Shown piece by piece: positions 1,634-30,077 of a DNA stretch of 31,970 bases. Origin of the DNA: a virus. The notes under the pieces are model-generated. The model had not been told where the DNA came from. It ran no database searches and saw only the letters and a list, made by a program, of their open reading frames with translations. Position numbers and translations under genes: made by a program. The stretch is taken from positions 1-31,970 of IMG/VR virus record IMGVR_UViG_3300020470_000114. One strand, 5' to 3'. The first letter of the stretch is position 1, and every line of letters begins with the position of its first letter.

Positions 1634-3889
1634 TTAAACGACTGTGTAAACGCTAGTAGAACTGATAGTTAAAGTAACTCCATCATTAATAGTTACTGGG
1701 CCTGCACTCATACCATTAGTACCTGCTGCAATCGTATGTGATGCACTAATAGTAGCACTATTTTCGTATATAGCACCACCAGCTACAGTACTTGATATGG
1801 AGTTTGTTGTGACTGCTGTAATCCTTCCTTGTGCATCTACAGTAATAGCTGGAGCTAAAGTAGTTGAACCATAAGTACCAGCCGTTACAGATGTATTAGC
1901 AAGTTTGTCAGCAGTTACAGCGTCATCTGCAATCTTAACTGTAGTAACATTACCATCAGCAATCTTAGCAGTCGTTACTGCTTGGTTTTGTATCTTTGCT
2001 GTAGATACTGTATCATCTCCTGGTGTTGGAATACTTACAGCAGAACCAGATTGAGTTATAAATACACTTGCCCCTGTTGGTAAATTTGTACCAAAGATAA
2101 TAGTATTAGCATCAACCAATGCAAAGCCTTCAGCTGGTGCAGATGTACCTGTATTTGCTTTTTGTATAACACCATTAACACTTACAATTAATTGAGCTGC
2201 ATTAGTTACACTAGCTGCTGATCCAGAATTACTACCTTCTCTAAGATCATAAGTTGCGATACTTCCATTAATTGTTGGAGCACCTGAACCTCCAGCAGGG
2301 CATAAGAATAAGAATTTAAAATCACCAGTAGATGTAACTTCTTTAAAAGCTGATGTAGTGCTGTCATAGACTTTCATCTTGTCAGCATTTTTATCGTAGA
2401 TTAAATCTCCTTCATCATTATTAGAAGTCGGCTCTCCTGTCGTTACCCGATATCTAGCAGCAAAATCATTAATATCATTACTAAGACTTAAGAGATCAGC
2501 TTCTTTCAAAGTTGCTTTATGGTAGTTATATATCTGACCAGAGCCAGTTGAACTAACCATCATTGCTACTCCAGCATCAACAGTAGAGCTATTAAAGTTA
2601 CTAGCAAAATTATTAATAGTAACTGTAGATCCACCAACAGTTCTTCCTGTTGTACTTGTACCTGATCCATTTACAACAAGTCCACCTGCATCAGCAATAC
2701 TTATTACAACACCTGCTGCTGGTTGTGTATTAGGAAAAGCTGCATCTGTAGCTATAACTTCTAATCCACCAATAGGTGCTATCTGTGCTGCTACATAATC
2801 AACAACAGCACCAGAAGTAGGGAACTTTGTATCATCATCAGTTAAAGTGGTCTGTTTTGCCATGCCATCTAACTGGTTAAGATCAGCAAGATCAGCAGTT
2901 AAAGCTGTACTATCAGCTAACTTAGAAGCTGTACCAGATTGCATACCTGCAAGAGTTGTTAACTCCGCATCTGCTATTTCAGAAGTTCCTACAGAGTTTG
3001 CTTGTAGGTGTTCTGATCCAATAGCATTGTCGGCTATCTTTGTACCATCCACACAGTCAGCAGATAGGTGAGAAGTATCTATACTTCCATCTACCAATTC
3101 ACTACTATCAACTGAGTTTGCTGCAAGGTGACTAGCATCAAGAGGACTACCAGCTATAAGACTTTTAATTTCTGATACTGTTTGATCTGCAGTTGCATTA
3201 GCTTCTATTGCATTTAACTTCGTATGATCTGCGTCTGTGAATACATTTGAATCTGAAGCAGACTCTACAAGAGTTCTTATTTCAGCAGCAGTTTGGTCAG
3301 CAGTTGCATTAGCTTCTATTGCATTTAGTTTAGAATGGTCTGCATCAGTAAACACGTTGCTATCACTAGCACTTTCGACTAAAGTTCTTATTTCTGCTGC
3401 GGTCTGATCTGCTGTAGCTGATGCTTCAATAGCATTTAGTTTAGAATGATCTGCGTCTGTAAAGACATTACTATCGGTTGCTGCTTCTACTGCTGCTCTA
3501 ATTTCTGCATTTGTTTGGTCTGCTGTAGCATTTTCCTCAATAGTTCCTAACTTATCTATAATCTCTTGTTGAGCAAATAAAACCTGATCTGCATTTGTAT
3601 CTAAGTCTGTTTCTGTAAGAACAGAACCATCTTGGAAATCTACTTTCTTAGCAGAGATATTTGTATCTCTTTGGAATTTAATAGCAACACCATTACCAGG
3701 TTCATTACCACTGGTAAATGTAATTTGTGTTGCACTGGTAAATGTGTAGTGGGTAGTAATGGTTTTTAAGACACCACCGACAGTAACATCTACTTCTGCT
3801 TCTGATAGATAGGAAAAGGAAATGCTAAAGGGACCAGCAGTACCATTACCAGTATGGTTTGTAAAAGATGCAGCAGTGTTAGTAGCCAT
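1634..3889 (-). CDS. 17: T7 gp17-like tail fibre protein
   Basis: 751 residues. The N-terminal 80 or so (TAGPFSISFSYLSEAEVDVT, then an ITTHYTFTSATQITFT-type stretch) match the T7 gp17 N-terminal domain that anchors fibres to the tail tube. After it come a coiled segment, three copies of a 37-residue repeat plus a partial fourth copy, Asp/Ser/Ala-rich linker repeats (DSSELVDGSIDTSHLSADCV type) and a beta-rich C-terminus. T7 gp17 is 553 residues, so this fibre is longer and repeat-extended. It is preceded by the giant internal virion protein (2-base gap), the same order as gp16-gp17 in T7. The C-terminal tip shows no recognisable chaperone or hydrolase motif. Confidence 0.85.
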   Translation of the reverse strand: MATNTAASFTNHTGNGTAGPFSISFSYLSEAEVDVTVGGVLKTITTHYTFTSATQITFTSGNEPGNGVAIKFQRDTNISAKKVDFQDGSVLTETDLDTNADQVLFAQQEIIDKLGTIEENATADQTNAEIRAAVEAATDSNVFTDADHSKLNAIEASATADQTAAEIRTLVESASDSNVFTDADHSKLNAIEANATADQTAAEIRTLVESASDSNVFTDADHTKLNAIEANATADQTVSEIKSLIAGSPLDASHLAANSVDSSELVDGSIDTSHLSADCVDGTKIADNAIGSEHLQANSVGTSEIADAELTTLAGMQSGTASKLADSTALTADLADLNQLDGMAKQTTLTDDDTKFPTSGAVVDYVAAQIAPIGGLEVIATDAAFPNTQPAAGVVISIADAGGLVVNGSGTSTTGRTVGGSTVTINNFASNFNSSTVDAGVAMMVSSTGSGQIYNYHKATLKEADLLSLSNDINDFAARYRVTTGEPTSNNDEGDLIYDKNADKMKVYDSTTSAFKEVTSTGDFKFLFLCPAGGSGAPTINGSIATYDLREGSNSGSAASVTNAAQLIVSVNGVIQKANTGTSAPAEGFALVDANTIIFGTNLPTGASVFITQSGSAVSIPTPGDDTVSTAKIQNQAVTTAKIADGNVTTVKIADDAVTADKLANTSVTAGTYGSTTLAPAITVDAQGRITAVTTNSISSTVAGGAIYENSATISASHTIAAGTNGMSAGPVTINDGVTLTISSTSVYTVV
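3172..3533 (-). repeat. 37-residue (111-bp) tandem repeats inside the tail fibre gene
   Basis: Three full protein repeats and a partial fourth, each of the form ATADQT-EIR-V--A-DSNVFTDADH-KLNAIEA, in frame within the fibre gene. At protein level copies 2 and 3 are nearly identical, whereas the DNA differs at many synonymous positions, so the duplication is old or has been kept divergent at the DNA level. The predicted structure is helical or coiled shaft; copy number could change fibre length. Confidence 0.8.
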
Positions 3890-11960: not shown

Positions 11961-12413
11961 TTAAGCGATCCTCAGAAATTCATAAAAGGGTTTATTCTGC
12001 ATACCATATTGTTCGTGATATTGAATAAAGGTAAATCCAAGAGATTTTAACCACTTGATAGCAGAAGTATTCTCTGCATATACAAAATTATATAAGACTT
12101 TATAAGATTTCAACAGATTATCTACCCATTTCCTACCTTTTCTTATCAGTTGTATTTTATATTTATTATTCTCAAATAATTTATCAGTCGCAACCATCCA
12201 TATAACACCACCAGAAACTACTCCACAAAGACCTATAGGTTGATCGTTATCGTCAGCTATAGCCATATTTACATTGCTACAAATATAAGTAAACTGTAGA
12301 GCTTGTAGTGGTTCTTGTCCTGACTGATAGTAAGCTTCTAACTTATCAACTTCTCTCATGTTGTTAGCTACATATCTAAGATCTTGTAGGCTTGCTTTTC
12401 TTAAATGACCCAT
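11961..12413 (-). CDS. 13: GNAT-fold internal virion/assembly protein, T7 gp13 position
   Basis: 150 residues with the strand-helix layout of a GCN5-type acetyltransferase: an early LRKASLQDLRYVANNMREVD segment, a central strand GLCGVVSGGVIWMVATDKLF and a C-terminal YAENTSAIKWLKSLGFTFIQ motif typical of GNAT proteins. The usual acetyl-CoA loop Q/RxxGxG/A is weak (LIRKGRKW), so catalysis is doubtful. Genes at this place in T7-like marine phages (T7 gp13) encode similar GNAT-like proteins needed for virion assembly. The start overlaps the stop of the tail tubular B gene by one base (TAATG at 12413), which indicates coupling to tail and core protein production. Confidence 0.7.
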   Translation of the reverse strand: MGHLRKASLQDLRYVANNMREVDKLEAYYQSGQEPLQALQFTYICSNVNMAIADDNDQPIGLCGVVSGGVIWMVATDKLFENNKYKIQLIRKGRKWVDNLLKSYKVLYNFVYAENTSAIKWLKSLGFTFIQYHEQYGMQNKPFYEFLRIA

Positions 12414-14866
12414 TACACTCTCCTACTTCTCATATGGAACATAGCTTCATATTCAGCACTAGATAATTGAGTAGGCAAGAACGTGTCATTTTTAACATCT
12501 ATATCTACTCTATCTGCTCTTGACATTATTGGCACTCTAAACGTACCTGTTTCTAAATTAATTTGTCCTATAGCACTAGAAGCTGCACCTAATAAACGAC
12601 CAGTAAATTTATGTGTAGACGTATCTCTATTCTCAGGTGTTACTTCTACTTTAAAGAATCCTGTGTCTTCAAACTTTATATAGAAATGATGTAGTTGTAG
12701 ACGGCCACTTATATATTCACTACCTGCTTGTCCACTCGTACCTGCAGTTAGTCTTTGAGAACTAAATCTGTAGTGCATTTCATATGGTTCTCCAATAATA
12801 AATTTACTATTTCTATAATCTCCATTAGCTGTAATTGTAGATGTAGATCCATCAGTGGAATTAGATGTCGTTATTACTTGTCCAGGCTTAAGTGTTTTGG
12901 TATTGCCTTGTGTATTAACAAATGTACTTGTCTCTCCATTAGCAAGGTATCTACCAATTACATTCATACTTGCTCTTAACCTATAAGGAACAGTGAATGT
13001 AGTTACATCAGTACTAGAGTTATATGCGACAGAAACACCTGTAGTTGCTTCTGTGACTTTATGATCTAAATGATATTGAAAGTCTGCATTAGCTTCAGTG
13101 AAGTCTGTTTCAAAAGGTATTTTTTCAAGTGTTACTTTATTAGCTTCTTCTATTACTACAAACAAATCAGTACCTATAAAATCTACATTTTTAAAAGACC
13201 TATTGCTATTGATAGTAAAAGTAAACCAACTGTTTAATATCTTCTGACCTTGATTACCATACAACCATCTGTTGACGTATAGCTTATTAGGATTATCTGT
13301 ACCTAATAAAACCAAAACATCTTGGTTATTAGATACTGCCATTTGAAAAATATTACTGGGGATCAATCTTGGTACATGAATAGTAATGTTAGCAGCATCT
13401 TTTATCTGTTCTCCTTGTGTTATATATTCTCTAATACCAGCAAAAGATCCTTTCTTAGTTAAGAAGTAGATACTAGATCCAGAACCTACAGGTTGTGCGT
13501 CATCACTACTTTCAAATTCAGTTGCGACTATTACGTTAGCTGTTTTAGGAGTAAGGTTATCTGCTGAACTTGTTAATACAAATTGCGTTTGGTCTGAGAA
13601 CAATATCAACTGTTCTCCCATAGTTACTGCGTGTTTTAAAATAGCGACTTTTGTATGTGAAGCAGCAACGTCTATAGGTTCACTATCTAAAACTGATATA
13701 ACAGTCTCTGGAAAGAAGTTAAAGAACTCAGATACACGACTAAGAATGACATTATCCCCTGCCAGGAATCCAAGTCTATTTCTAAAAAAGAATACGTTAT
13801 TAATTTTATTACCAATGAAAGAAGGATCTGGTGCTGATACAGCATCACCGACTGTTCTTTCTCCCCATTTAGGTAATACATAGTCAACACTAGATATGGT
13901 GTATGTGTCTCCATCTACCTTTGCAAATCTAAAGTTACCATCTGCCTGACGTACAAGAACGTGTGGCATTGTTGCATAATCAAATTTAAAAGTAATACCT
14001 GGTGCTACTGTTTCTTCCCATTGTCCTTCTTCAAAAGTACCACCATTATTAGTAACAAATTTCACATAATAGTTATCAAAGTTAGTATCTTCATCTCCCT
14101 TGACTTCTACTACATAACCATTAGGTGAAACAGTTGGCAGGTCAGTAAATCTTTGTACTGAATCCTTAACGATAGTCATCTTGGTATCACCCTGAGTATC
14201 GCTACCATCTATAGAGAAATTAGAATCATCATTCTTCTTGATATATAAAACAGGACCATTACGAGCAATAGTAAAACCAGTTAATGCAGAATCTAAACTG
14301 TTCTTTAAATTAGTAGCTACTGTATCTGTGCTTAATGGGTCATCTCCTGTAGTGTCATCAGTAACTGTATTACCATCAACAGTAACCGAATAGGTTGTTT
14401 TAGATGTTGCTTGGTTTATAAAGACTATTGCTTTAGTTCCTGTCCCACCACTAGCAGTAGTATCCATTGCTGCTGTAATGCTTGTATTAACGACAAAGGT
14501 ATAGTCAGCAATAGTTACAGTCTTGATAACACCTCTGGGATCAGATGTATTTAGGTATGTCGTTCCATCAGGTTTGTTTACAGTCTTTTCATTCCCTGCT
14601 AAATCATAAACCTTTACATTGCCGTTACTAAATATCGCTACATATTGTTCATTAGTATCTCTGTTTATAGTTTGTATATGAATATTACCTAAAGTAGAAG
14701 AACTAAGTGTTGTTACATATCGCAGACCAGATCTCTTTACTAAACCTATGACAGGATTAGAGTCGGCATTATCTTGTATATCAGCGTGATCAGCTTGCTT
14801 GGTTGAATCTGAAGACTGAGATATACCCCTTAATAAAGTTGGTATAGCTCTTGAGATAACACCCAT
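12413..14866 (-). CDS. 12: Tail tubular protein B (gp12-like nozzle)
   Basis: 817 residues, close to T7 gp12 (794). The N-terminus MGVISRAIPTLLRGISQSSD is the hallmark of this family ('..IpnLigGVSQQP' in T7), followed by a KQADHADIQDNADSNPVIGL stretch and PxxxLVKRSGLRYV. The middle has VSEFFNFFPETVISVLDSEP (T7: YSDYFNFF), also diagnostic. The protein forms the tail nozzle below the gp11 ring in T7. The gene lies 2 bases after the gp11-like gene and overlaps the gp13-like gene by one base. Identification is firm from sequence signatures and synteny. Confidence 0.92.
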   Translation of the reverse strand: MGVISRAIPTLLRGISQSSDSTKQADHADIQDNADSNPVIGLVKRSGLRYVTTLSSSTLGNIHIQTINRDTNEQYVAIFSNGNVKVYDLAGNEKTVNKPDGTTYLNTSDPRGVIKTVTIADYTFVVNTSITAAMDTTASGGTGTKAIVFINQATSKTTYSVTVDGNTVTDDTTGDDPLSTDTVATNLKNSLDSALTGFTIARNGPVLYIKKNDDSNFSIDGSDTQGDTKMTIVKDSVQRFTDLPTVSPNGYVVEVKGDEDTNFDNYYVKFVTNNGGTFEEGQWEETVAPGITFKFDYATMPHVLVRQADGNFRFAKVDGDTYTISSVDYVLPKWGERTVGDAVSAPDPSFIGNKINNVFFFRNRLGFLAGDNVILSRVSEFFNFFPETVISVLDSEPIDVAASHTKVAILKHAVTMGEQLILFSDQTQFVLTSSADNLTPKTANVIVATEFESSDDAQPVGSGSSIYFLTKKGSFAGIREYITQGEQIKDAANITIHVPRLIPSNIFQMAVSNNQDVLVLLGTDNPNKLYVNRWLYGNQGQKILNSWFTFTINSNRSFKNVDFIGTDLFVVIEEANKVTLEKIPFETDFTEANADFQYHLDHKVTEATTGVSVAYNSSTDVTTFTVPYRLRASMNVIGRYLANGETSTFVNTQGNTKTLKPGQVITTSNSTDGSTSTITANGDYRNSKFIIGEPYEMHYRFSSQRLTAGTSGQAGSEYISGRLQLHHFYIKFEDTGFFKVEVTPENRDTSTHKFTGRLLGAASSAIGQINLETGTFRVPIMSRADRVDIDVKNDTFLPTQLSSAEYEAMFHMRSRRV

Positions 14867-15603: not shown

Positions 15604-16590
15604 TTAAGAAGCAGATAACTTGATTGTAGCTGCACACTCAGGTCTTAGGATTCCATGACCTAAAGCATACTTAGCAACCATCAATGTACCTTGATACATG
15701 ATTCCGTAGTCAGAACCAGAGATCTCAGTAGTCATATCCATTAGTTTAACTGTACCAACAGCAGACTTATGGAAGACAAGACCAATAGTTTTACTATCGT
15801 CACCAGAGTAGGTGTTGTTAGCTCCACTTGGGTTTGATCCTACGTTTGATTGAGGTACGTTGTTACTCATCATTACAGGAATACCTGCAATCTGTTGTAC
15901 ACGACCTGAAGCAAATGAACCATTACCTCCTGGGTTGTAGTCAACATCTACTGTTCTTGTAGCAGACTCAGCTAACTTGTAGTACTCAGCAGGTGGTAGT
16001 ACACAGAAACGATCTGTTGGAGGGATGTCTCTTTCATCAAATGCCTGTGCGATGTCATAGATAGCTGCTGCTAACTCATCACCAGTTACGTTTGCTGAAG
16101 CAGTATTACCATTAGCAAGAGTAGAAACTAATCCACCATTGCCACCTGTAAGAGTTGTTGAAGCTCTTGAAGCATTAGCAATTACCTTCGCTACGTTTTC
16201 ATCGTATTTTTTTGCGAGAGCTTTTCCTAGCTCATCAGCGTATGTAGCTCTGACATCGTAATGATTCATAAGCTCGTCAAGATTGCTGACGAAAGCTTGT
16301 GATATTAAAAGATCATCAATAGAAATAATCTTTTCATTTGCCAAGATCTGGTTAGCACCAACTAATGGTGTACCTGGGGTATGGTATGCAGCAGTTGCAG
16401 TACCTGTAACAGGAAACTGTGCTGACTTACCAGAAGTAATAGTACGAACTGAATGAAGTGCTTCGTTAAAGATGTTGTTTCTAGCAAAGGCTGTTAGAAC
16501 CTCACCAGAGAACACTTTCAGAAACAGGGCTTCGTAGTCTGTTCCACTATTATTTACCAGACCCAGGCGTGAAACTGTGGCGTTAGCCAT
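15604..16590 (-). CDS. 10: Major capsid protein (gp10-like)
   Basis: 328 residues (T7 gp10A 345). It has the HK97-type phage capsid pattern of T7-like viruses: an N-terminal arm MANATVSRLGLVNNSGTDYE, then ALFLKVFSGEVLTAFARNNI, SAQFPVTGTATAAYHTPGTP, and a central FDERDIPPTDRFCVLPPAEY. The C-terminus ends GILRPECAATIKLSA, as in many cyanopodovirus capsids. A strong Shine-Dalgarno (AAAGGAG, 8 bases before ATG) fixes the start and fits the highest-expressed gene. It is preceded by a 174-base non-coding leader with a candidate promoter and a shared 11-base motif, and followed by a hairpin. Confidence 0.93.
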   Translation of the reverse strand: MANATVSRLGLVNNSGTDYEALFLKVFSGEVLTAFARNNIFNEALHSVRTITSGKSAQFPVTGTATAAYHTPGTPLVGANQILANEKIISIDDLLISQAFVSNLDELMNHYDVRATYADELGKALAKKYDENVAKVIANASRASTTLTGGNGGLVSTLANGNTASANVTGDELAAAIYDIAQAFDERDIPPTDRFCVLPPAEYYKLAESATRTVDVDYNPGGNGSFASGRVQQIAGIPVMMSNNVPQSNVGSNPSGANNTYSGDDSKTIGLVFHKSAVGTVKLMDMTTEISGSDYGIMYQGTLMVAKYALGHGILRPECAATIKLSAS

Positions 16591-17583: not shown

Positions 17584-17736
17584 TTAGTTATAAGTCATTG
17601 TACGACCATTTTTAGTTTCGACCACTCTTGGACCTGTAGCTTTAGGTTCATCATTAACACCTAGTTTACTGACAACAGCTTTTGCTGGTTCTGTCTCAGG
17701 TGCTTTTGGTGCTGGATTAGGCTTCTTGGTTGGCAT
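17584..17736 (-). CDS. Small Pro/Lys-rich protein (50 aa) between portal and scaffold genes
   Basis: Encodes MPTKKPNPAPKAPETEPAKA and ends VVETKNGRTMTYN. The start is strongly supported: AACGGAGGAAACTA precedes the ATG, and the ATG lies inside the last 20 bases of the portal gene. The stop is 9 bases before the scaffold start. The composition (Pro, Lys, Ala, Glu) predicts an unstructured peptide. Short genes at this place are frequent in marine T7-like phages; function unknown, possibly head assembly or a minor virion component. Confidence 0.75.
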   Translation of the reverse strand: MPTKKPNPAPKAPETEPAKAVVSKLGVNDEPKATGPRVVETKNGRTMTYN

Positions 17737-19300
17737 TAGTTTCCTCCGTTAGTTGTTGTGCTTGAGCATTATTTTTAGGATCTAATAAAGGTGATCCTAG
17801 AGCAGCAGGTCCGAGATGTTGTATAAGCTGCTGCTGTTGCATCGCTTGCATCTCAGCCTGTATCTCTTCCTGTGTCTTTACTAGGTTAGCAGTATCTATA
17901 CCAATAGAATTTGCTAATCGTTTTATTGCTTCATCTACATTCATGTACTGTCTCATTATATCTGGACCTAAAGCTTGAGCTACTGTGCCGATAAACTCAA
18001 TAAGTTTATTACGATCATTACCTCTACCAAGACCTTGAACACCTGTTACAATTTTAGGTTTCACTAATTTCTCAGGTAACTTAGGAGCTTTACCAGAACG
18101 TACAAGCATATGCATCCTACGTTTTAGATATGGTAGCTGAAACTCTTGTGTCAGTATTGAATAGATACCACCTAAAGAGTTTTCTAGTTCATTAGCCATC
18201 ATGGTAACTTCTGCTGCTGTTACTCTTTCTGCATCTCTTTGAACGGACCTTGCCATAAGGAAGGCATATTCAAGTCTTGATTCAATTCGTTGTATAGCAG
18301 AGAAAGATACTTGGAAGTCTGAACCCTTACCTACTTGCATAACAGAAATATCTGCTGCATTACCTTCTCTTATTGCACCATTAGGAGCTTTAGCTAGTGT
18401 TGCTGCTCTTGTCACACCATTGGGATTAACAAGGAATATAGTCTTAGCTGATGCTGCTGCACCTTCTATGATCGCTTGCATCAAAGCTTCTAAACTAATT
18501 AAGTCTCCTCTATATTCTTCTACATATCCTCTTCCATAATCTTCTCCATCAATTCTTACAAACCTAAGAGTAATCCAGGGTGATACATCTACCTTTGATC
18601 TTCCATCAGTACCTGGTATCTTTTCCCCTTTACATTCTTGATACCATATAAAGTCATCATCAACTCTAGTGATATATGTATATATATCAATATCACTATC
18701 CATTGCCTTCTCATCATAGTTATCTTTCTTCTTAATCTGTTCTAAGAACTCTGATGGCAATGCGTTAGGGTGTATTGATTCCTGTGTAATAATTTCTAAT
18801 ACATTACCAACAGCATCTCTTTTACATACAAACTTTGATAGTGGATATACCTTCAGTCCATCATCGGTGAGATAGAGAAGAACATTTCCTCCAACGATCA
18901 GATGTTTTAATGCTTCAAACATTGCGACTCTATCGTTAGAAACTTCTATCTCATTCATTAAAGCTGTTTCTATTGTTCGCAATCCTTTATCTATTTCTGT
19001 TTCTAATCCTTCCTGTCCTTGTTTTAGCAGTTCAAGACTATCAATACTTAATTTAAAGAAAGCTGTTGATGGAGGAAGCAATGCAAATAAAAGTTTAGAT
19101 GCAAGACTGTTCACACCTCTAGCACCTACAGCTTGGAAAGGAGTTTTTATCTTTGCTCTTGTACCTGTTGTACTCTCAGGGATAAGACTAGGTATGGTTA
19201 GCTTTGATGATTCTTTTGCTTCTCTGTCAAAGGTAGATCTTGCACTTTGTAGTTGTGCATATCTACCAGCAGCAGTTTGTCCTTGTGTTGAATACTCCAT
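17717..19300 (-). CDS. 8: Portal (head-tail connector) protein, gp8-like
   Basis: 527 residues (T7 gp8 536). Signatures of T7-type portals are visible: YAQLQSARSTFDREAKESSK and TIPSLIPES near the N-terminus, then QAVGARGVNSLASKLLFALL and PPSTAFFKLSID ('..GA.g.nsLasKl...LfPp...FF.L' in the family), and a C-terminal Gln-rich helix (AEMQAMQQQQLIQHL). The dodecamer sits at one head vertex, nucleates assembly with the scaffold and docks the terminase and tail. No good Shine-Dalgarno is visible before the ATG; the stop of the 77-residue gene lies one base upstream, so translation is probably coupled. Confidence 0.92.
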   Translation of the reverse strand: MEYSTQGQTAAGRYAQLQSARSTFDREAKESSKLTIPSLIPESTTGTRAKIKTPFQAVGARGVNSLASKLLFALLPPSTAFFKLSIDSLELLKQGQEGLETEIDKGLRTIETALMNEIEVSNDRVAMFEALKHLIVGGNVLLYLTDDGLKVYPLSKFVCKRDAVGNVLEIITQESIHPNALPSEFLEQIKKKDNYDEKAMDSDIDIYTYITRVDDDFIWYQECKGEKIPGTDGRSKVDVSPWITLRFVRIDGEDYGRGYVEEYRGDLISLEALMQAIIEGAAASAKTIFLVNPNGVTRAATLAKAPNGAIREGNAADISVMQVGKGSDFQVSFSAIQRIESRLEYAFLMARSVQRDAERVTAAEVTMMANELENSLGGIYSILTQEFQLPYLKRRMHMLVRSGKAPKLPEKLVKPKIVTGVQGLGRGNDRNKLIEFIGTVAQALGPDIMRQYMNVDEAIKRLANSIGIDTANLVKTQEEIQAEMQAMQQQQLIQHLGPAALGSPLLDPKNNAQAQQLTEETNANQEA

Positions 19301-19842: not shown

Positions 19843-19879
19843 AAAAACACTTGCAATGCTACTTGCAGGTGTTTTTTTA
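19843..19879 (-). terminator. Rho-independent-type terminator closing the replication operon
   Basis: An inverted repeat CACYTGCA/TGCARGTG flanked by A-run and T-run overlaps the exonuclease stop codon. In the minus sense the stem has one C-A mismatch and is followed by TTTTT; in the plus sense it has a G-U pair and a seven-T run, so it may work in both directions. It separates the replication genes from the structural genes. Confidence 0.7.
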
Positions 19880-20608
19880 TGGAGTCCAAAGAGATATTTC
19901 TCCTGTATTGTAATCAAAATCTCCATCTCTCAGTATTCTTGCAAGCTGTGCATTAAGAACAGCATCAGCAAAGTTATATTTCTTTTTTTCATAAGCAGCT
20001 ACTACCTTTTCCCACATCTGCTCAAGTGTTTTAGCTTCTCCTAATATTTTCTCTGCTGTTACTGGTCCTACTTTATCTATACCAAAGTAGTTATCTGTAC
20101 TGTCTCCTGTAAGAGCTTGTATCATCCAATGTCTATCAGCTTTACGTTTAGTTATTAGTTCTAAATCATCACCTGCCAGTAGGGTACAAGGTACAGATCT
20201 CATATCTTTATCGACTGAAACTATTATTGGGTTGTCGTATTGTTTAGATGTTGCAAGCAAAGCCATAACATCATCACCTTCAAGCCCATCAAAACTTTTT
20301 GATTCATATCTTTCTCTTACCTGTTCAATAATCTTACCAAGACCAAGAGGTTTTCTTTTGTTTTTTCTATTGGCTTTGTATTCTGGATAGATCGTATGTC
20401 TAAATGTTGGATATTGGGTAAAACACATGACAACATCTTTATCATTTTCAGCAATAGTTTGATAGTAAGAGACTCTACCATCTATCATTTCATGGACATC
20501 TCTTTCATCAGCATGAAGAGTATGTAAGTTATCATTCCACTTGATGTCTTGTTCACAAGCACAGCATGAGGAATAGATAAGCCAATCAGCGTCAATTAAT
20601 AAAGTCAT
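19877..20608 (-). CDS. 6: 5'-3' exonuclease (T7 gp6-like)
   Basis: 243 residues of the FEN/5'-nuclease superfamily. Metal-binding acidic residues are in place: D6 and D8 (LIDADWLIY), EGDD at 110-113, DKDM at 133-136 and TGDSTDN at 167-173, followed by the helix-hairpin-helix GIDKVGPVTAEKIL. The helical-arch basic stretch YKANRKNKRK lies at 77-86. In T7 the enzyme removes RNA primers and degrades host DNA for nucleotides. The start overlaps the primase-helicase stop by one base (TAATG), so the DNA polymerase gene that stands between these two in T7 is not there. The stop codon is inside the terminator hairpin. Confidence 0.9.
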   Translation of the reverse strand: MTLLIDADWLIYSSCCACEQDIKWNDNLHTLHADERDVHEMIDGRVSYYQTIAENDKDVVMCFTQYPTFRHTIYPEYKANRKNKRKPLGLGKIIEQVRERYESKSFDGLEGDDVMALLATSKQYDNPIIVSVDKDMRSVPCTLLAGDDLELITKRKADRHWMIQALTGDSTDNYFGIDKVGPVTAEKILGEAKTLEQMWEKVVAAYEKKKYNFADAVLNAQLARILRDGDFDYNTGEISLWTP

Positions 20609-22215
20609 TAGTTCCCGAAGTAAGTGGACATAGGTACTACAAGTCTTCCTGTCTTTTCGTCATACAATAATTTATCTACTGGTCCTGTCATTCCTGTGTG
20701 TCTATTCTTCAATACTCTTAACTGTAACTCTGCTCTCTCTGCATAACTTTCCGACTGCTGATTTCTTTCGGCACTAATACAAAGATCTGATAGCTGCAAT
20801 ATTCCAGAACTTCCTCTCAAATCAGAGGTACTTACAGTTTGTCCTTGTTCGTGCGAAAGTCCAGGAGGTCTTCTTAAATGACTGACAAGAATTAAACCTA
20901 TACCAGTAGATTCAACGACCTGTCTTAATTTTGTACACGCAATATCAATAGCACGTCTTTCATCTACATTATCTATACCAGAAACTACTATTGTCAGATG
21001 ATCTAGTATCACTACGTCTACACCTTCTGCTGTTGCAAGGTAGGTGATCTGTTCTATTAACCTGTCAGGGTCCATAGATCCAAAGTGATCATATAAGAAT
21101 AGTTTTTCTGTACCAAACAACCTGTCAAAAGATTGTTTCAATCCTTCTGTTTCTTCTAAATTCTCTTCAAGATGTAAAGGTCTATTCATTTCTACACCAA
21201 GTATTCCTTGCATTGTTCTTTGTACACTTTCTTCAAGAGCTATATAACCAACTGTTAATTTGTTTTTAAGAAAGTGATGTGCTAATTCTCTACAGATAGT
21301 TGACTTACCTGTACCACTACCTGCTGCTATTGTTATCATCTGGCTTTTACGAAAGCCTTTTGTAAACTGATCTAACATCGGGTAAGGGAAAGGACAAACA
21401 CTACTTGTACCTTTCTTTGTTAATTCTTCCCAAAGGTTAGAGGCATTAAGTATTCCATCTGGTCTAACAGGTGTTGCTTTCCATAAAAGATCTCTAAGTT
21501 CTTCCCCTTCTCCTGAGATGAGCATTTCATTAGCATCTTTTCTTGGGAGTCTACATATAGCTGCCTTACCAGGAGGTAAGATTTTAATTGCTTTTTCGGC
21601 AGCAGCCATGCCAGGCTCGTCACTGTCAAAACAGAGAACTATTCGTACAAATTGGGATAACCATTTTAAATTTGCAGCTATATATTTGTTAGCCGACTGT
21701 GATCCCGAAGGCAAACTTACTACAGGATATTTATTACCTTGCACTTGTGAGACAGACATACAATCTATCTCCCCTTCTGTGATGGTAACGAACATATTAC
21801 CTGTATTATGTTGACGCCATAATCGTTGACCCCATAGTTGTAGATCGCTGACATCTCCTAGCCAAATAAATTTTTTGTTTTGAAATCTTATATGTTGTGC
21901 TGATTGTCTACCTAACTTGTCTTCATAGGTAGCAACTTGTACTGGCTGCCCATTATGTTCTGAGATTCCATAGTTAAATAGTTCACAAGTTTCTTGTGTG
22001 ATATTACGTTTAGGTAATGCTTTTGGGTTGACAAATTTAAGTAATGGTTTCTTCACTGGTTTAACAAAAGACTTTCTGGGTTTATCTTTTTCTGGTTGCT
22101 GCGTGTAGCCACAACCAAAACAGTAACCATGACCATCATCATAGATGGCAAGGTTGTCCTTACTACCACACTCAGGGCATGGTTCTTTCCTTACATAATT
22201 GCTGCTGCTCTTCAT
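20608..22215 (-). CDS. 4: Primase-helicase (T7 gp4-like)
   Basis: 535 residues from the chosen start at 22215 (MKSSSNYVRKEPCPECG). A zinc ribbon uses C13, C16, C32 and C35. The TOPRIM primase core has TEGEID (146-151) and CFDSDEP (195-201). The RecA-type helicase has Walker A AGSGTGKST (298-306), Walker B VVILDHL (about 401-407), SHLRRP (445-450) and RGSSGILQLSD (467-477). An upstream ATG at 22278 would add 21 residues lying entirely in the endonuclease reading frame; T7 gp4 has its zinc site near the N-terminus, so I prefer 22215. Even so the gene overlaps the endonuclease by 44 bases. It unwinds DNA and makes primers at the fork. Confidence 0.92.
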   Translation of the reverse strand: MKSSSNYVRKEPCPECGSKDNLAIYDDGHGYCFGCGYTQQPEKDKPRKSFVKPVKKPLLKFVNPKALPKRNITQETCELFNYGISEHNGQPVQVATYEDKLGRQSAQHIRFQNKKFIWLGDVSDLQLWGQRLWRQHNTGNMFVTITEGEIDCMSVSQVQGNKYPVVSLPSGSQSANKYIAANLKWLSQFVRIVLCFDSDEPGMAAAEKAIKILPPGKAAICRLPRKDANEMLISGEGEELRDLLWKATPVRPDGILNASNLWEELTKKGTSSVCPFPYPMLDQFTKGFRKSQMITIAAGSGTGKSTICRELAHHFLKNKLTVGYIALEESVQRTMQGILGVEMNRPLHLEENLEETEGLKQSFDRLFGTEKLFLYDHFGSMDPDRLIEQITYLATAEGVDVVILDHLTIVVSGIDNVDERRAIDIACTKLRQVVESTGIGLILVSHLRRPPGLSHEQGQTVSTSDLRGSSGILQLSDLCISAERNQQSESYAERAELQLRVLKNRHTGMTGPVDKLLYDEKTGRLVVPMSTYFGN

Positions 22216-22636
22216 ACCAATCTCTAGGAATAGAGCCATGACTCCAGAGAAAACCATGCTTAGTTGCCCAAGCACCATAGGTTAAACTTCTTTTGCCACG
22301 ACTCAGTTTTGCTTTACTGTTTTGAAAACAGAATCGTATATCTAATTCGGGTCGTTGCGTCTTAATCGCAATATGTTTTCTTCTGTCTTCTTTCGAGAAG
22401 AAGCCCTTAGTTTCAATACAGATGCCGTTGTTAAGGATGAAATCAGGCTTATAAACGCAACTGATTTGGTAGCTAACATCAAGTGTTTCATAAGTATAAG
22501 GAACTTTATTTGCTTGTAATGTAGCTGCTATCGCAGCTTCAAACTTGCTTCTAAAACTCGTCTGCCCCGACTGTTTCAAACCCTGCCTTCTTCTTGGGTT
22601 TCTCTTCTGCGACTGCTTCCTCGGTTTCAAAGCCAT
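22172..22636 (-). CDS. 3: Endonuclease I (Holliday junction resolvase, T7 gp3-like)
   Basis: 154 residues (T7 149). Catalytic residues align by eye with T7: E33 (SFRSKFE), E50 (YTYETLD), D65 (YKPDFIL), and E75/K77 (GICIETKG), followed by RRKHIAIKTQRPELDIRFCF, very close to T7. It resolves branched DNA and cuts host DNA. The ATG start at 22636 lies 86 bases inside the SSB gene in another frame and gives a basic tail KPRKQSQKRNPRRRQ. An internal TTG (codon 20, behind GGCAGGG) is an alternative start that would remove most of this tail while keeping all catalytic residues. Confidence 0.9.
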   Translation of the reverse strand: MALKPRKQSQKRNPRRRQGLKQSGQTSFRSKFEAAIAATLQANKVPYTYETLDVSYQISCVYKPDFILNNGICIETKGFFSKEDRRKHIAIKTQRPELDIRFCFQNSKAKLSRGKRSLTYGAWATKHGFLWSHGSIPRDWYEEQQQLCKERTMP

Positions 22637-23174
22637 AGCCTACTGCTGTTTTAGTGTACTCGACATGATTATGAATAATCACAGCTTCTGGTTGAATCTT
22701 AATACCAACTCCAAAGCTAGGATTTTCCCAACCACTACATCTCATGTTGACTTGACCTGTAGTACCTGGGCCACACTTGTTTACCTTTTCCTTCTGCTCT
22801 TCTGACATAGGAGAACCATCGGCATTGAATAGAACAGGTGGTCTTTGTTTCCATTGAGTGCCGTCTGCTCTTACTCCACCACCTTTCATTTTGGTTTTTA
22901 CTCTAAAGTATTGTTTGCCATCAATCTCTTCAAAACCAAAAGGTAGCTGTGCAAGCTTGTACTTTTTATTTGGGTTTGCAATCTTTAGTTGGGTCTTCCA
23001 TCTTTCTAGTAGACCACTAAGTTGTTCTTCTATCTCTTGAGATTTCTCTGGCTCAATAAGACATTCAACCTGCCATATACCAGAGGCATCAAACTTAGTA
23101 TCAGGTTCTACTAACCATGCAAATTGAAATAGACATACTGGTGTTGTAATGTTTAAAATTTCTGATTTAATCAT
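22551..23174 (-). CDS. 2.5: Single-stranded DNA-binding protein (T7 gp2.5-like)
   Basis: 207 residues (T7 232). Internal signatures of the phage gp2.5 OB-fold family include FQFAWLVEPD near the N-terminus and a GVGIKIQPEAVIIH segment before the tail. The C-terminus is acidic and ends in an aromatic residue (FETVGADEF), the feature by which gp2.5 contacts the replication proteins in T7. It is the first gene after the RNA polymerase, then endonuclease I and primase-helicase follow, the T7 order (2.5-3-4). Its last 86 bases double as the start of the endonuclease gene. Confidence 0.88.
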   Translation of the reverse strand: MIKSEILNITTPVCLFQFAWLVEPDTKFDASGIWQVECLIEPEKSQEIEEQLSGLLERWKTQLKIANPNKKYKLAQLPFGFEEIDGKQYFRVKTKMKGGGVRADGTQWKQRPPVLFNADGSPMSEEQKEKVNKCGPGTTGQVNMRCSGWENPSFGVGIKIQPEAVIIHNHVEYTKTAVGYGFETEEAVAEEKPKKKAGFETVGADEF

Positions 23175-23267: not shown

Positions 23268-25661
23268 TTAACTAAACACATATGGTGCTAACAAAACTTC
23301 ACAGATATTAAAATCACCTAGATCTGGTGGTGTTGGTAATTTATTTGGTTTATCTAACTGCTGTACTGATTGATCATATAAATTATCAAGAATATTATCG
23401 GTGTACATTTCAACAAAAGATTCTTTCACACAAGAAATAAATTCTTCTATATCAGCAGCAGTCGAACCGAAACAATCATGGATGGTTGTAAAATTACTAA
23501 GACCTTTTTGTTTACTTTTTTGTAATGCTAAATGTACATTAGCAGCATCTAAACTATGAACAAAATTAGCAGCAAAAGATTGATTTGTCTTTCTTCTGTC
23601 GATCTCTTCTGTGTTAGTAGTAAGTGACAACTTTACAGTGCTAGTCCCTATCTTAGTCTTTATTTGTTTACTATTAAGCCTGAAATAATTCTGATTAATA
23701 TAAAACTTAGATGGTGTATTCCACTTCATAACTTTATTCTCATTACTAAAACATTTAGCAACGTCTGTTAAATATTGCATTACTATTGCAGACTTAGGAC
23801 AAACTTTATTAACAATAGATATTATTTTTTTAGCAAGAAAATAGTTATGACTGAAGCTATCTTTTTCCCAGGACAAATCTAAATTGTATTTATATATGTA
23901 ATCTTTTATTGCATTACTTATACCGAACAAAGTTCCACTATAAGGAATCATCATTATTGGTTTCTTTACCATCCTTCTAGTTATAAGATTTGCATGGGAA
24001 TACCAATCTATTGCTAACTGTTCATCACCCATTGCTAATTCTTCTATAAGTTCTGTTCTTACTTCATCGTATAAATCTTGTATGCCATCAAAGTTAATAA
24101 GATTTACTTTAGCTGCAAGATCATCATCACAAGTCATAGCTGCAAAGTGTTGATAGCCATTGTTACTACCATCAAGTAAGACAGGATGTTTACTTATATA
24201 CCCATAACCTTCATTCATAAACTTATGCCATTCAAAACACCAGGCAAGAAATTGGAAAGGTTCTTCTGCTTTACCCCATAGGTTGATAGTCGATTCTGGA
24301 TTAGTTGCTATTTGATTTGCTAATACTGCACCTTCAGTATTAGACCATTCAATACGTTCTTCATAGCTACACTTACTCATTCCCCAATGATTAGCACCTG
24401 CTATACCTAACCAATCCTTAGCCTTTTCATTCTTTACAGGCTTGCCTTCAGCAAATCTATGCAAGGCCCTAGCAAGATCATTACCTTGCGGATTAAAGGT
24501 AGCTGCTACTGGATAGATACGACCTGTAAAGTCTGCCTGATAAACGTGGTAAAAGGTTTCGTCTTTGTAATATAAAGCTGTATCTAATAAAGATAGGCAT
24601 TGAAATCTTTTAGCTCGGTCATGGGCATTTTGGTCGTGGATAATACTAGCTTCTTTTCTATACTTAAGTCTTGCATCTTCGTTCGTATCTATATCATGTG
24701 GTTTAGGCGGTAAAGGTAATGTTTCAGCATCAATCAAACAACCTATTTCTATACCTCTATCCCAACAGCTTTGAGCAATATCAAGAATATCTTGATTTAC
24801 TTCCCACTTCGTATCCTGTAGAGAATTTAGGGCTTGAAAAAATGCTATTGGTTTTCTTTCTTCTACTTCTCTGGCGTAGTCAAGATCTTTAGATTTAATA
24901 GCTTTAACGTGTCTTAATCTTTTAGTATAGAAACCACCATCAGTAACACTTATCCAATCTCTAGGCTTCTCCAGACAGGGCATATAGATAGGATAGGCAG
25001 CTAGCCTATTGCTTCTCTGTCTTTTTATCCATGCCATAGCCCCCTCAGTAAAATCAATATAGGCTTTTGTTTTATTGTTATATCCCCTAGTAGATAACTT
25101 GATCATTCCAACAGAATGAATCATTAGATCAATAAGTTTCATTCCAATTCGTAACTTATCTTCCTTGGCCCATGATTGAAAAGCAAAACCTTTCTTTCTC
25201 ATGTGACCCATCATCATATTTCTTCTGTATCTTGGGTGAGTTGTATCAGTTATATGTTTTCTTACAGCAGTAAAATGTTTCTCATCTTCCTGTTCAAAGA
25301 CACTAAATCTAAGTTCATCTTCTAGCAGATGACCTATTTGTAAGGCTGTTTGAGTGGCCGTCTTTACTTGTGAAGCACAATCTATTATCGCCTTAAAAGC
25401 AATGAAGCTAACAACGTCTATATCTGGGAACTGAGATAATTTAACAGCAGCTATTGCCTTTGGTCCTGGTGTACCTCTCCAAGACCTATCAATAAACTGC
25501 TGTATCTTTTCTGATAAAGGTAATAGACCTGCAATGATCATGCTCCTGGCATAATCATTCTCAGATTCTTTTCCCCTAGATATATTTAGTTGAACTTTTC
25601 TCTGTCGTAAGTCGTAACCACGACCACACATTTCCTGTTCTACTTGTTGTTGTTTACTCAT
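23268..25661 (-). CDS. 1: Single-subunit DNA-directed RNA polymerase (T7 gp1-like)
   Basis: 797 residues (T7 883). All key motifs are present: DFTGR (377-381, T7 DWRGR), LLDGSNNGYQHFAA with metal aspartate D497, the R562-xxx-K566-xxxxxxx-Y574 pattern of motif B (RRMVKKPIMMIPYSG) and HDCF with the second metal aspartate D729. It would transcribe the replication and structural genes from phage promoters. The shorter length is mainly in the N-terminal region. The start overlaps the end of the 45-residue gene by 8 bases, so synthesis is coupled to the early operon. No standard T7 promoter is visible in the window, so its promoter specificity has diverged. Confidence 0.95.
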   Translation of the reverse strand: MSKQQQVEQEMCGRGYDLRQRKVQLNISRGKESENDYARSMIIAGLLPLSEKIQQFIDRSWRGTPGPKAIAAVKLSQFPDIDVVSFIAFKAIIDCASQVKTATQTALQIGHLLEDELRFSVFEQEDEKHFTAVRKHITDTTHPRYRRNMMMGHMRKKGFAFQSWAKEDKLRIGMKLIDLMIHSVGMIKLSTRGYNNKTKAYIDFTEGAMAWIKRQRSNRLAAYPIYMPCLEKPRDWISVTDGGFYTKRLRHVKAIKSKDLDYAREVEERKPIAFFQALNSLQDTKWEVNQDILDIAQSCWDRGIEIGCLIDAETLPLPPKPHDIDTNEDARLKYRKEASIIHDQNAHDRAKRFQCLSLLDTALYYKDETFYHVYQADFTGRIYPVAATFNPQGNDLARALHRFAEGKPVKNEKAKDWLGIAGANHWGMSKCSYEERIEWSNTEGAVLANQIATNPESTINLWGKAEEPFQFLAWCFEWHKFMNEGYGYISKHPVLLDGSNNGYQHFAAMTCDDDLAAKVNLINFDGIQDLYDEVRTELIEELAMGDEQLAIDWYSHANLITRRMVKKPIMMIPYSGTLFGISNAIKDYIYKYNLDLSWEKDSFSHNYFLAKKIISIVNKVCPKSAIVMQYLTDVAKCFSNENKVMKWNTPSKFYINQNYFRLNSKQIKTKIGTSTVKLSLTTNTEEIDRRKTNQSFAANFVHSLDAANVHLALQKSKQKGLSNFTTIHDCFGSTAADIEEFISCVKESFVEMYTDNILDNLYDQSVQQLDKPNKLPTPPDLGDFNICEVLLAPYVFS

Positions 25662-27053: not shown

Positions 27054-27494
27054 TTATTCCCCAAAGTAGAAACAACTACAGAACCATTCAAGAGCTTCTA
27101 TGTCATCTGTTATGTTGACGTTTAACCCTGCGTAGTGTGGATTAAGTTGTAAATTTTCCCAAGAGGTCCCCCAATCTTGATATTGAATTTCAATATCTGT
27201 AGGCTGGTTGTATTGGTCTAAGTCGCCTATAACCCGACACGCAGGCCCACCCCAAGAAAGTAGTATTTTAAATTCTTCAGGCTTTAAATCTGCTATAGAT
27301 TCAGGCGATGAATACCAACCACCTCTAAATTCAACAGATAAAGCACTATTTAAAACGCTTTCTCTTATCTCATCTTGGGCCTTGTAGTCATCATTACTCT
27401 CAGCTTCTTTATAGTTTCTATAATTTTCTTTGATAGATTCAAGCTGATTCATACAATTAGTTAAAGCATGATTTTCTTTTGTTGAAGTAATCAT
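27054..27494 (-). CDS. First early gene, 146 aa, family of unknown function
   Basis: The N-terminal 50 residues are helical and charged. The C-terminal part carries EFRGGWYSSPESIADLKPEE, then FKILLSWGGPACRVIGDLDQ and IEIQYQDWGTSWENL. I recognise 'GWY.p........eF.ILLs.GGPA.Ri.GeL......a.l.yQDWgTpW' from a widespread family on phages and plasmids whose role is not established. As the first gene downstream of the genome-end region it should be among the first expressed, the usual position of host-takeover or anti-defence genes (inference). It has no Shine-Dalgarno; the CCCAGT leader precedes the ATG at 27494. Confidence 0.7.
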   Translation of the reverse strand: MITSTKENHALTNCMNQLESIKENYRNYKEAESNDDYKAQDEIRESVLNSALSVEFRGGWYSSPESIADLKPEEFKILLSWGGPACRVIGDLDQYNQPTDIEIQYQDWGTSWENLQLNPHYAGLNVNITDDIEALEWFCSCFYFGE

Positions 27495-28040: not shown

Positions 28041-28060
28041 CCCCCCCTATAGTCCCCCCC
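28041..28060. other. C7-TATAGT-C7 block (G-quadruplex-capable on the minus strand)
   Basis: Seven C, TATAGT, seven C. In transcript sense this is G7-ACTATA-G7, able to give four G3 runs with short loops. ACTATAGGG is also identical to the initiation region of T7 class III promoters, but the upstream recognition part is absent. It starts 22 bases after the large terminase stop. Confidence 0.6.
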
Positions 28061-28081: not shown

Positions 28082-29803
28082 CTAATAAGAATTACTTATA
28101 AAACCATCGGAGGGGGTATTAGAATTGCTTATCTGTTGAGGGGTCATACCTAATGCAGATTGAGTGATGGTGTTATTAAGAGAAGATCCCCAGTTATCAA
28201 GGTGAATAGCTAGTAATTCATCTTTACGAGATCTTATATTTCTATCTTCATCAGCAGACATATATTCAGTCCAATAGGCAACTGCTCCTGATAAGGCATC
28301 TAAGATGTCATCGTGTACGAGAGAGCCTCTGTGTTTAGTTATACGAGACATTTGATAGAAGAGTTGAAGTTTTAGTTTTCTTTCTGGAGCTTCGTTAGGG
28401 TTAGATCTATAGTCTTTTTCTACTACTTTTTTGTCGATTATTAGTCTGTGGGAGTTCATAACAGGTTCTAGGGTGTCTATTATACGTAATTCTTTGGTTT
28501 TATTGTTTCTAACGTCTTGTACTTCGCAAGGATGATACCTCATAAGGAAAGGTTTTAGGAGTTCAGCGAACATACCACCGCCCATATTGGATTCTACGAG
28601 GATAGTATTTACTTTATTTGTCTTGGCTATTTTAGATAATGTTGTTAAAACAGCGTCAGAGTACCCACCATTTAGTCCCCCTGCGTCAGGAACGTATAGA
28701 TTACCATTTAACATTTTGACTACAGCGTAACCTGTAGCGTCTTTACCCTTACCAGAGGGGTCAACGAACATAACAGAGCCTGTATATTCAATCCAATCAC
28801 CAAATTGTTGTGCAGGTCGATAGAAATGGTCTCCGTTAAACCCTACACAGGGTAATTCCTTGATGACATATTCGGGAGAGGAAGACCAGATTACTTTTTC
28901 TGGAGCATGATCAGGGTTAACTGAAGATATTATTAGGTCTGATAGTTTTAAAGGGTATCTATCCTGGTCAGATAGGCTAGTGTCTAGCATAAACTGTAGA
29001 GAGAACCCAGAACGGCCATAGGAAGCCTCACGTTCCATTAGATCTATGGAAGAGAATCTTTCTGGGTCAACAGGATCTTTAGGCTTTACAAGCTCTTCTG
29101 CAAGCTTCTCAGCTAATTTAGGAGCTAATCTATCTCCGTAGTTATTTTTAAGGTCTGGATAACGTGCAGTCCAAATACGAGTCGTATATCCACGTTCTTC
29201 TAGGGTTAGATATAAGGATTGTTCAGTTTGTGGTGTGCCGAGAAAGGTAATTTTGCCGTTAGGTTTTAAAATTGCATCAAATTCTTTAACAGCTTCACTA
29301 AGTTTGTCTCTCATTGGTTGGGTAAAGCTGTTATTTGGTACTTCTACGTCATCTGCAATTACCTCATCTGCTCTACTACCAGCCATTTGTCCTAAAACAC
29401 CTTGAGATTTTACTGAAGGAGCGTGGTCAGCGTGTGCAGGTCCAACATCAAAACTTATTTTACTGTTCCTTTGAGAGTCATCTGGGCGTAATGGAGCTAA
29501 TATTGGCATCTCGTTTATAAGACGCATGGTAAAGGTAGAGAAATTATCGGCTCTATCCTTACTTGCAGAGACAACAAGAAACTTTAGTTGTGGATTCATC
29601 CGTAGTTTCCACACAACATAGGTAGAAGTTATCCAACTCTTACCTACGCCTCTAAAGGCTTGTATGATCTTTCTGCGAGGTCCATGCTGTAAATACTCAG
29701 CAATGTCTAATTGAACTGGTGTAGGGTCAGGTAGGTTAAGATGACGCCAAGTTATGATTAGAAAGTATCTAAAGTCTTGTAATTTTTCAGGTAATGGTTG
29801 CAC
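28082..29803 (-). CDS. 19: Terminase large subunit (DNA maturase B, gp19-like)
   Basis: 573 residues (T7 586). ATPase Walker A AFRGVGKSW (49-57) and Walker B with DD at 151-152 and E154 (IADDVEVP); coupling segment FLGTPQTEQSLY. RNase H-like nuclease: D348 in FVDPSGKGKDATGYA, E404 in ILVESNMGGGMF and D498/D499 in HDDILDAL. Similarity to T7 gp19 is evident over the whole length (e.g. RGVGKSWITS, VSASKDRADN, ISFDVGPAHADHAPSVKSQG). The start codon is GTG, one base after the small terminase stop, so it relies on coupling; no in-frame ATG precedes the conserved N-terminus. It pumps DNA into the prohead. Confidence 0.95.
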   Translation of the reverse strand: MQPLPEKLQDFRYFLIITWRHLNLPDPTPVQLDIAEYLQHGPRRKIIQAFRGVGKSWITSTYVVWKLRMNPQLKFLVVSASKDRADNFSTFTMRLINEMPILAPLRPDDSQRNSKISFDVGPAHADHAPSVKSQGVLGQMAGSRADEVIADDVEVPNNSFTQPMRDKLSEAVKEFDAILKPNGKITFLGTPQTEQSLYLTLEERGYTTRIWTARYPDLKNNYGDRLAPKLAEKLAEELVKPKDPVDPERFSSIDLMEREASYGRSGFSLQFMLDTSLSDQDRYPLKLSDLIISSVNPDHAPEKVIWSSSPEYVIKELPCVGFNGDHFYRPAQQFGDWIEYTGSVMFVDPSGKGKDATGYAVVKMLNGNLYVPDAGGLNGGYSDAVLTTLSKIAKTNKVNTILVESNMGGGMFAELLKPFLMRYHPCEVQDVRNNKTKELRIIDTLEPVMNSHRLIIDKKVVEKDYRSNPNEAPERKLKLQLFYQMSRITKHRGSLVHDDILDALSGAVAYWTEYMSADEDRNIRSRKDELLAIHLDNWGSSLNNTITQSALGMTPQQISNSNTPSDGFISNSY

Positions 29804-29804
29804 C

Positions 29805-30032
29805 TTATCGTTCTATAACAGGTATTACGTCTAAATCTGGTAAGTTTGACATAAGATCTTCCATAGGATTCTTTTCTGTTGGTATGCACTCTATGCCATT
29901 ATCTTTAAGAAGTTGTCTTGCTACGTTTAAATCACCTGGTTTTGCTTCTCCACAATTTATTCTCTCCAATAATTCTTTTATAAGAACTGTTTGAAGATTT
30001 TCTAATAGTTCTATCTTATTTGCTTTTTCCAT
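29805..30032 (-). CDS. 18: Terminase small subunit (DNA maturase A, gp18-like)
   Basis: 75 residues from the ATG at 30032 (MEKANKIELLENLQTVLIKE). 'LLERINCGEAKPGDLNVARQLLKDNGIEC' is the recognition helix segment shared by small terminases of cyanopodoviruses. A TTG at 30074 extends the frame by 14 residues, but that stretch (LKKGILVSTNILH) does not look like the family. It recognises concatemer DNA for packaging. It ends one base before the GTG of the large subunit. T7 gp18 is 89 residues. Confidence 0.82.
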   Translation of the reverse strand: MEKANKIELLENLQTVLIKELLERINCGEAKPGDLNVARQLLKDNGIECIPTEKNPMEDLMSNLPDLDVIPVIER

Positions 30033-30077
30033 ATGTAAGATGTTGGTTGAAACTAATATACCTTTTTTTAACAAATT

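Follow-up and report, generated by a model that had tools for sequence, protein, structure and literature searches.

Absence of a DNA Polymerase Gene between Primase-Helicase and Exonuclease in a T7-like Virus Assigned by Sequence to the MPP-C Cyanopodoviruses

The linear IMG/VR virus record of 31,970 bp analyzed here over its full length (the window) is probably a nearly complete genome and carries a T7-like replication module in which the primase-helicase gene is followed directly by the exonuclease gene, with no DNA polymerase gene in between. It is almost certain that this gene is absent and that the virus belongs to MPP-C. Defined by P-SCSP1 and P-SCSP2, this lineage of cyanopodoviruses was reported as abundant and as devoid of both DNA polymerase and auxiliary metabolic genes (Cai et al. 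2022, ISME J, PMC9860041); the lack of a DNA polymerase in the group was already published in 2022, and most of its biology is in print as well. New here are the extent of the clade, a single loss of the gene, the lack of a clade-wide replacement gene, the loss of the helicase tail, the association with a mini-NrdR protein, and a high-GC branch. As a whole, the observations are best explained by one deletion of the polymerase gene in the MPP-C ancestor, with the genome being copied by the host Pol III together with the phage helicase-primase and SSB, a reading to which we assign a probability of roughly 0.7.

Gene Content of the Window and the Helicase–Exonuclease Junction

On the minus strand, the stop codon of the primase-helicase (TAA, 20610–20608) and the start codon of the exonuclease (ATG, 20608–20606) overlap at base 20608 as TAATG. 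The plus strand reads ...ataaagtcattagttc... at 20600–20615, i.e., ...AACTAATGACT on the minus strand. The family A polymerase model DNA_pol_A (PF00476) had no match anywhere in the record, and no polymerase was found among the window proteins by Pfam (20 proteins) or PHROGs (30 proteins). The first-pass annotation had held from the sequence alone that this locus leaves no room for a polymerase, and both the junction and these null searches bear it out. Its statement that the other replication genes are retained (RNA polymerase, SSB, endonuclease I, primase-helicase, and exonuclease) also agrees with the Pfam and PHROGs assignments (Table 1). A polymerase gene elsewhere in the genome was found neither in the window, nor in the complete genomes of P-SCSP1a and P-SCSP2, nor in 42 related IMG/VR records. 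The DNA_pol_B, Pol III alpha, and Prim-Pol models had no match in the window or in 13 near-complete relatives; the DNA_pol_B_2 search matched none of the controls and is uninformative.

Table 1. Features of the window, with their positions on the 31,970-bp stretch.
Feature	Position	Strand	Evidence
Tail fibre, N-terminus T7 gp17-like	1634–3889	-	PF03906
Tail tubular protein B	12413–14866	-	phrog_457
Major capsid protein; 92% identity to P-SCSP2, 50% to P-SCSP1	15604–16590	-	phrog_267
Portal (head-tail adaptor)	17717–19300	-	phrog_449
5'-3' exonuclease (T7 gp6-like), 243 aa	19877–20608	-	PF02739 (N domain) and PF01367 (C domain) over cut-off; 58–63% identity to MPP-C exonucleases
Base common to helicase stop TAA and exonuclease start ATG (TAATG); DNA polymerase locus of other T7-like phages	20608–20608	-	sequence; gap comparison
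Primase-helicase (T7 gp4-like), 535 aa from conserved Met	20608–22215 (listed ORF to 22278)	-	DnaB_C/Toprim/Helic-prim_T7_N
Endonuclease I (T7 gp3-like)	22172–22636	-	PF05367, E 2e-35
Gene	22551–23174	-	phrog_112, E 2e-14; alignment
T7-like RNA polymerase	23268–25661	-	PF00940, PF14700; 46% identity to P-SCSP2
NrdR-like zinc-ribbon protein, 76 aa	25784–26014	-	PF22811 over cut-off; profile search
Terminase large subunit	28082–29803	-	PF22530, phrog_38
Terminase small subunit	29805–30074	-	PF11123, phrog_891

Since similarity to the relatives begins at Met 22215, the helicase probably starts there and not at 22278; the 21 codons upstream of this Met in the 22278 ORF overlap endonuclease I and are probably untranslated. 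Pfam and PHROGs also assign an SSB, a scaffold protein, tail tubes, and internal virion proteins. No auxiliary metabolic gene (psbA, hli, mazG, rnr, talC, or thyX) appeared among the Pfam and PHROGs matches of the window, the psbA family being absent.

Several features outside the replication module were also observed. For an early protein of 146 aa (27054–27494, minus strand), the fetched loci contain homologues in P-SCSP1a and G004 alone, and Pfam, PHROGs, NCBIfam, and PDB gave no match. Directly past the terminase stop, paired G-runs (GGGGGGGACTATAGGGGGGG at 28060–28041, minus strand) are kept in the near relatives L043, L015, and L044; in their place P-SCSP2, G029, G025, and G038 have CACTATAGGAGA, which resembles the T7 promoter core. 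Judged by its sequence, this site may be a phage promoter or a genome-end signal. A search of the intergenic regions for phage promoter motifs yielded nothing above shuffles. Residues 440–720 of the 1622-aa virion protein were considered as ADP-ribosyltransferase-like and dropped, as this region lacked sequence homologues both in the fetched loci and in PDB, and its predicted fold was unusable (pLDDT 38).

Relationship to MPP-C and Other T7-like Phages

The window carries the hallmarks of the Autographiviridae, namely a single-subunit phage RNA polymerase, T7-type terminase, portal, capsid, and tail tubes. The family A polymerase that typically lies between helicase and exonuclease in this family is absent from the window and also from MPP-C, which GenBank places in the family. 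T7, P-SSP7 (MPP-B), and Syn5 (MPP-A) share with the window their gene order and their replication and structural genes; unlike the window, they have a family A DNA polymerase gene in the interval from helicase to exonuclease, and their helicase tails are acidic and end in Phe. The next closest helicases (43–46% identity) belong to Autographiviridae of Pelagibacter and Roseobacter (HTVC025P, HTVC109P, and CRP-125), a group in which, in contrast to the window, all tested members have a polymerase.

The nearest named phages are the Prochlorococcus phages P-SCSP1 and P-SCSP2 and the fragment MedDCM-OCT-S08-C159. Like the window, P-SCSP1a–u and P-SCSP2 (OM416763–OM416780) have no DNA polymerase, an exonuclease directly after the helicase, and a T7-like gene order (RNA polymerase, helicase, exonuclease, portal, capsid, tail, terminase), and no auxiliary metabolic genes were found in these isolates either. 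Their helicases and exonucleases share 58–63% and 59–63% identity, respectively, with those of the window. MedDCM-OCT-S08-C159 (GU943031, Jalkavirus S08C159) is a 10-kb fragment with the helicase–exonuclease junction of the window and no polymerase, although it represents another species (helicase identity of about 60%). Complete MPP-C genomes measure 37.3–37.9 kb and the relatives of the window 31–38 kb.

Sequence comparison makes the window a new member of MPP-C with a mosaic genome. Its SSB and helicase are closer to those of P-SCSP1 (56% and 62% identity) than to those of P-SCSP2 (26% and 57%). The reverse holds for RNA polymerase, capsid, portal, and terminase, with 46, 92, 78, and 79% identity to P-SCSP2 and 26, 50, 49, and 52% to P-SCSP1. 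At the DNA level, merely 5–33% of the window aligns with P-SCSP1 or P-SCSP2. P-SCSP2 has an integrase, whereas none was found in the window. In P-SCSP2, an unannotated endonuclease I gene was also detected (L001, 5209–5628, plus strand; PF05367, E 6e-37); this contrasts with the 2022 paper, which states that P-SCSP2 has no recognizable endonuclease (PMC9860041).

The host of this ocean virus is probably Prochlorococcus. The GC content of the window (35.7%) is compatible with a high-light Prochlorococcus; no host marker was found in the window. Host assignment via cellular genomes was rejected, as the clade turned up in just one marine MAG (bacterium TMED161), on two of its contigs.

Extent and Single Origin of the Loss

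Scanning IMG/VR with the helicase gave 80 loci. All 62 loci with a helicase identity of at least 58% (L012–L073) have no polymerase beside the helicase, and at 50% identity or below the polymerase is present in every locus that reaches past the helicase gene. Over whole records, DNA_pol_A was matched in 0/42 IMG/VR clade records and 0/3 GenBank relatives (P-SCSP1a, P-SCSP2, and MedDCM S08-C159), and in 19/19 controls (5/5 outgroup records and 14/14 GenBank relatives). Two further scans supplied a wider control of 157 helicase loci, of which 146 have a polymerase and 11 end less than 1 kb past the helicase; none shows a polymerase-free helicase–exonuclease junction. For 57 polymerase-less loci, the helicase-to-exonuclease gap ranges from −79 to 881 bp (10 bp or less in 48 of them), whereas for 115 polymerase-bearing loci it is at least 1,732 bp, with a median of about 2.6 kb, so that the two ranges do not overlap. 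P-SCSP1a, P-SCSP2, and MedDCM-OCT-S08-C159 have a direct junction of the same kind as the window.

Some polymerase-less relatives carry other genes at the junction: a close relative has a Mom-family DNA modification gene between helicase and exonuclease (L014, 3058–3753, plus strand; PF25680, E 4e-42), and NrdR-like zinc-ribbon genes are found there in L027–L030 and L032. Separately, the cellular contig L177 encodes a T7-like helicase and SSB, with neither a polymerase nor an exonuclease detected within 10 kb, and is possibly another incomplete replication module.

In maximum-likelihood trees of both helicase and exonuclease, all polymerase-less phages, the window included, form one clade with support of 100/100. 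The lineage of polymerase-lacking cyanopodoviruses that the first-pass annotation suggested for this window is MPP-C (PMC9860041). The capsid (MCP) tree supports the clade at 90/89. Support for the whole clade is weak for the terminase (TerL, 62/71), the RNA polymerase (56/20), and the portal (20, quick tree), although none of the trees speaks against it; in the RNA polymerase, capsid, portal, and terminase trees the window groups with the P-SCSP2 relatives (starred). Because the helicase and exonuclease trees unite the polymerase-less phages, one ancestral loss of the gene would be the simplest reading. Within the clade lies a branch of 57–64% GC (G006, G007, and G013; loci L027–L033 and L035) that none of the published isolates represents and that does not carry psbA. 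Judged from GC content alone, its host is possibly Synechococcus/Cyanobium.

Helicase and SSB Tails, Primase Residue, and Clamp Motifs

In T7, gp4 and gp2.5 contact the polymerase through acidic C-terminal tails, both of which end in Phe. The primase-helicase of the window has a short, non-acidic C-terminus (...TGRLVVPMSTYFGN), as do those of the clade in general, with a charge of −2 to +2 over the last 15 residues and a terminal Phe in 1/58 distinct proteins. Among the polymerase-bearing helicases (144 loci), the tail charge is mostly negative (neutral or positive in 17/144) and 95/144 end in Phe. The SSB retains its terminal Phe in all 60 clade SSBs. The proposal that both tails may have acquired new partners has accordingly fared differently in its two parts: the helicase has lost its acidic tail, whereas the tip of the SSB is unaltered. 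Since the clade is one lineage, the change in the helicase counts once; as a single evolutionary event, it is suggestive and not proof.

Lys122 of the T7 primase is reported as essential in a passage of PMC9198812 citing Lee and Richardson 2001. The equivalent position of the window helicase (20611–22215, minus strand), residue 108, is His, as in 80/80 polymerase-less helicases, and is Lys in 53/55 relatives of the first sample. In the wider control, His also occurs in 22/146 polymerase-bearing phages, so that this substitution was rejected both as a mark of polymerase loss and as a sign of an inactive primase. The remaining catalytic residues of primase and helicase that were checked are conserved.

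No clade-specific beta-clamp-binding motif was found in helicase, exonuclease, SSB, endonuclease I, or RNA polymerase; there is thus no sequence sign of Pol III recruitment in these proteins. Two candidates were discarded: the exonuclease end EISLW fits only a relaxed pattern (8/14) and lies within an LW motif common in polymerase-bearing phages, and QLSMVF (residue 6 of the 22278 ORF) falls in the probably untranslated extension.

A Mini-NrdR Protein in the Clade

The 76-aa protein of the window is an NrdR-type zinc ribbon without the ATP-cone. In profile searches, NrdR-like proteins were found in 30 clade records or loci, such as L027 (11605–11808) and L001 (648–869), and in 0/24 polymerase-bearing genomes; some of these 30 represent one and the same contig in overlapping copies. 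P-SCSP1 and G013 have no such protein. In the high-GC branch, the NrdR-like gene lies between helicase and exonuclease, the usual place of the polymerase gene. No paper on phage NrdR zinc ribbons was found in the literature searched. The phage of the window carries no reductase, and a role of the mini-NrdR in freeing the host ribonucleotide reductase is speculation.

Which Polymerase Copies the Genome

Because the polymerase is the one T7 replisome gene that the phage lacks, we infer that it needs and uses a host polymerase, unless an unknown one exists. Indeed, the MPP-C phages P-SCSP1 and P-SCSP2 replicate on Prochlorococcus MED4 without a polymerase gene (PMC9860041). Pol III would be the likeliest choice since it is the replicative enzyme of the host and is used by other phages, such as SPP1, for which host Pol III use is cited in PMC9860041. 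In the proposed scheme, the common ancestor of the clade would have lost the family A DNA polymerase gene once, by a deletion between primase-helicase and exonuclease. The phage would load its own helicase-primase and cover single strands with its own SSB, DNA would be synthesized by the host Pol III holoenzyme, and the phage exonuclease and endonuclease would process primers, branches, and host DNA.

Recruitment of host DNA polymerase I into an otherwise unchanged T7-style replisome is the chief alternative to Pol III, though an unlikely one. Pol I belongs to family A, like the lost gp5, and was put forward by Cai et al. (PMC9860041); the C-terminal Phe of the phage SSB is, moreover, of the T7 type, in which it contacts gp5. 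However, this SSB tip is kept in polymerase-bearing phages too and is hence non-discriminating, host Pol I is a repair enzyme, and the helicase has lost the tail with which its T7 counterpart docks on gp5, which argues against unchanged docking. A wider host-replisome strategy appears improbable as a complete scheme. Here, the helicase C-terminus would be remodelled for the Pol III holoenzyme, the mini-NrdR would lift NrdR repression of the host ribonucleotide reductase and thereby supply nucleotides, and the strategy would extend to hosts of the high-GC branch.

It is very unlikely that a highly divergent or novel DNA polymerase is hidden in an unassigned gene, perhaps that of an injected internal virion protein. 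Cai et al. left this possible (PMC9860041), and annotation is poor for the large internal virion proteins (818 and 1622 aa). Yet what Pfam and PHROGs match in these proteins is domains of virion or lytic type, and P-SCSP1 and P-SCSP2 show no conservation of internal virion proteins (PMC9860041). Furthermore, none of the genes without an assigned homologue occurs in each of the four subclades while being absent in polymerase-bearing phages, so that a polymerase hidden throughout the clade is unlikely.

There is hardly any chance that the gene sits in a part of the genome missing from the record. The record is linear without end repeats, and comparison with G004 and G029 suggests that it is incomplete by an estimated 1–4 kb. 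This missing part would be the tail-fibre/lysis region, however, and complete or longer relatives have no polymerase either (P-SCSP1a, 37.8 kb; P-SCSP2, 37.3 kb; G004, 35.3 kb; G029, 36.3 kb; G038, 37.6 kb). Finally, an assembly artefact fusing helicase to exonuclease, conceivable for one metagenomic contig, is refuted for practical purposes because isolate genomes from culture are among the 57 loci that carry the same polymerase-free junction.

Implications

T7 is the textbook case of a self-sufficient replisome, and the clade represents a natural T7 replisome minus its polymerase in one of the most abundant phage groups of the ocean. With a clean single loss and the other replication genes retained, the identity of the host substitute for gp5 becomes a testable question. 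The sampling extends the clade past the published Prochlorococcus isolates and confirms that surveys based on the polymerase overlook phages of the MPP-C type. If true, the host-replisome strategy would reach beyond Prochlorococcus to the hosts of the high-GC branch.
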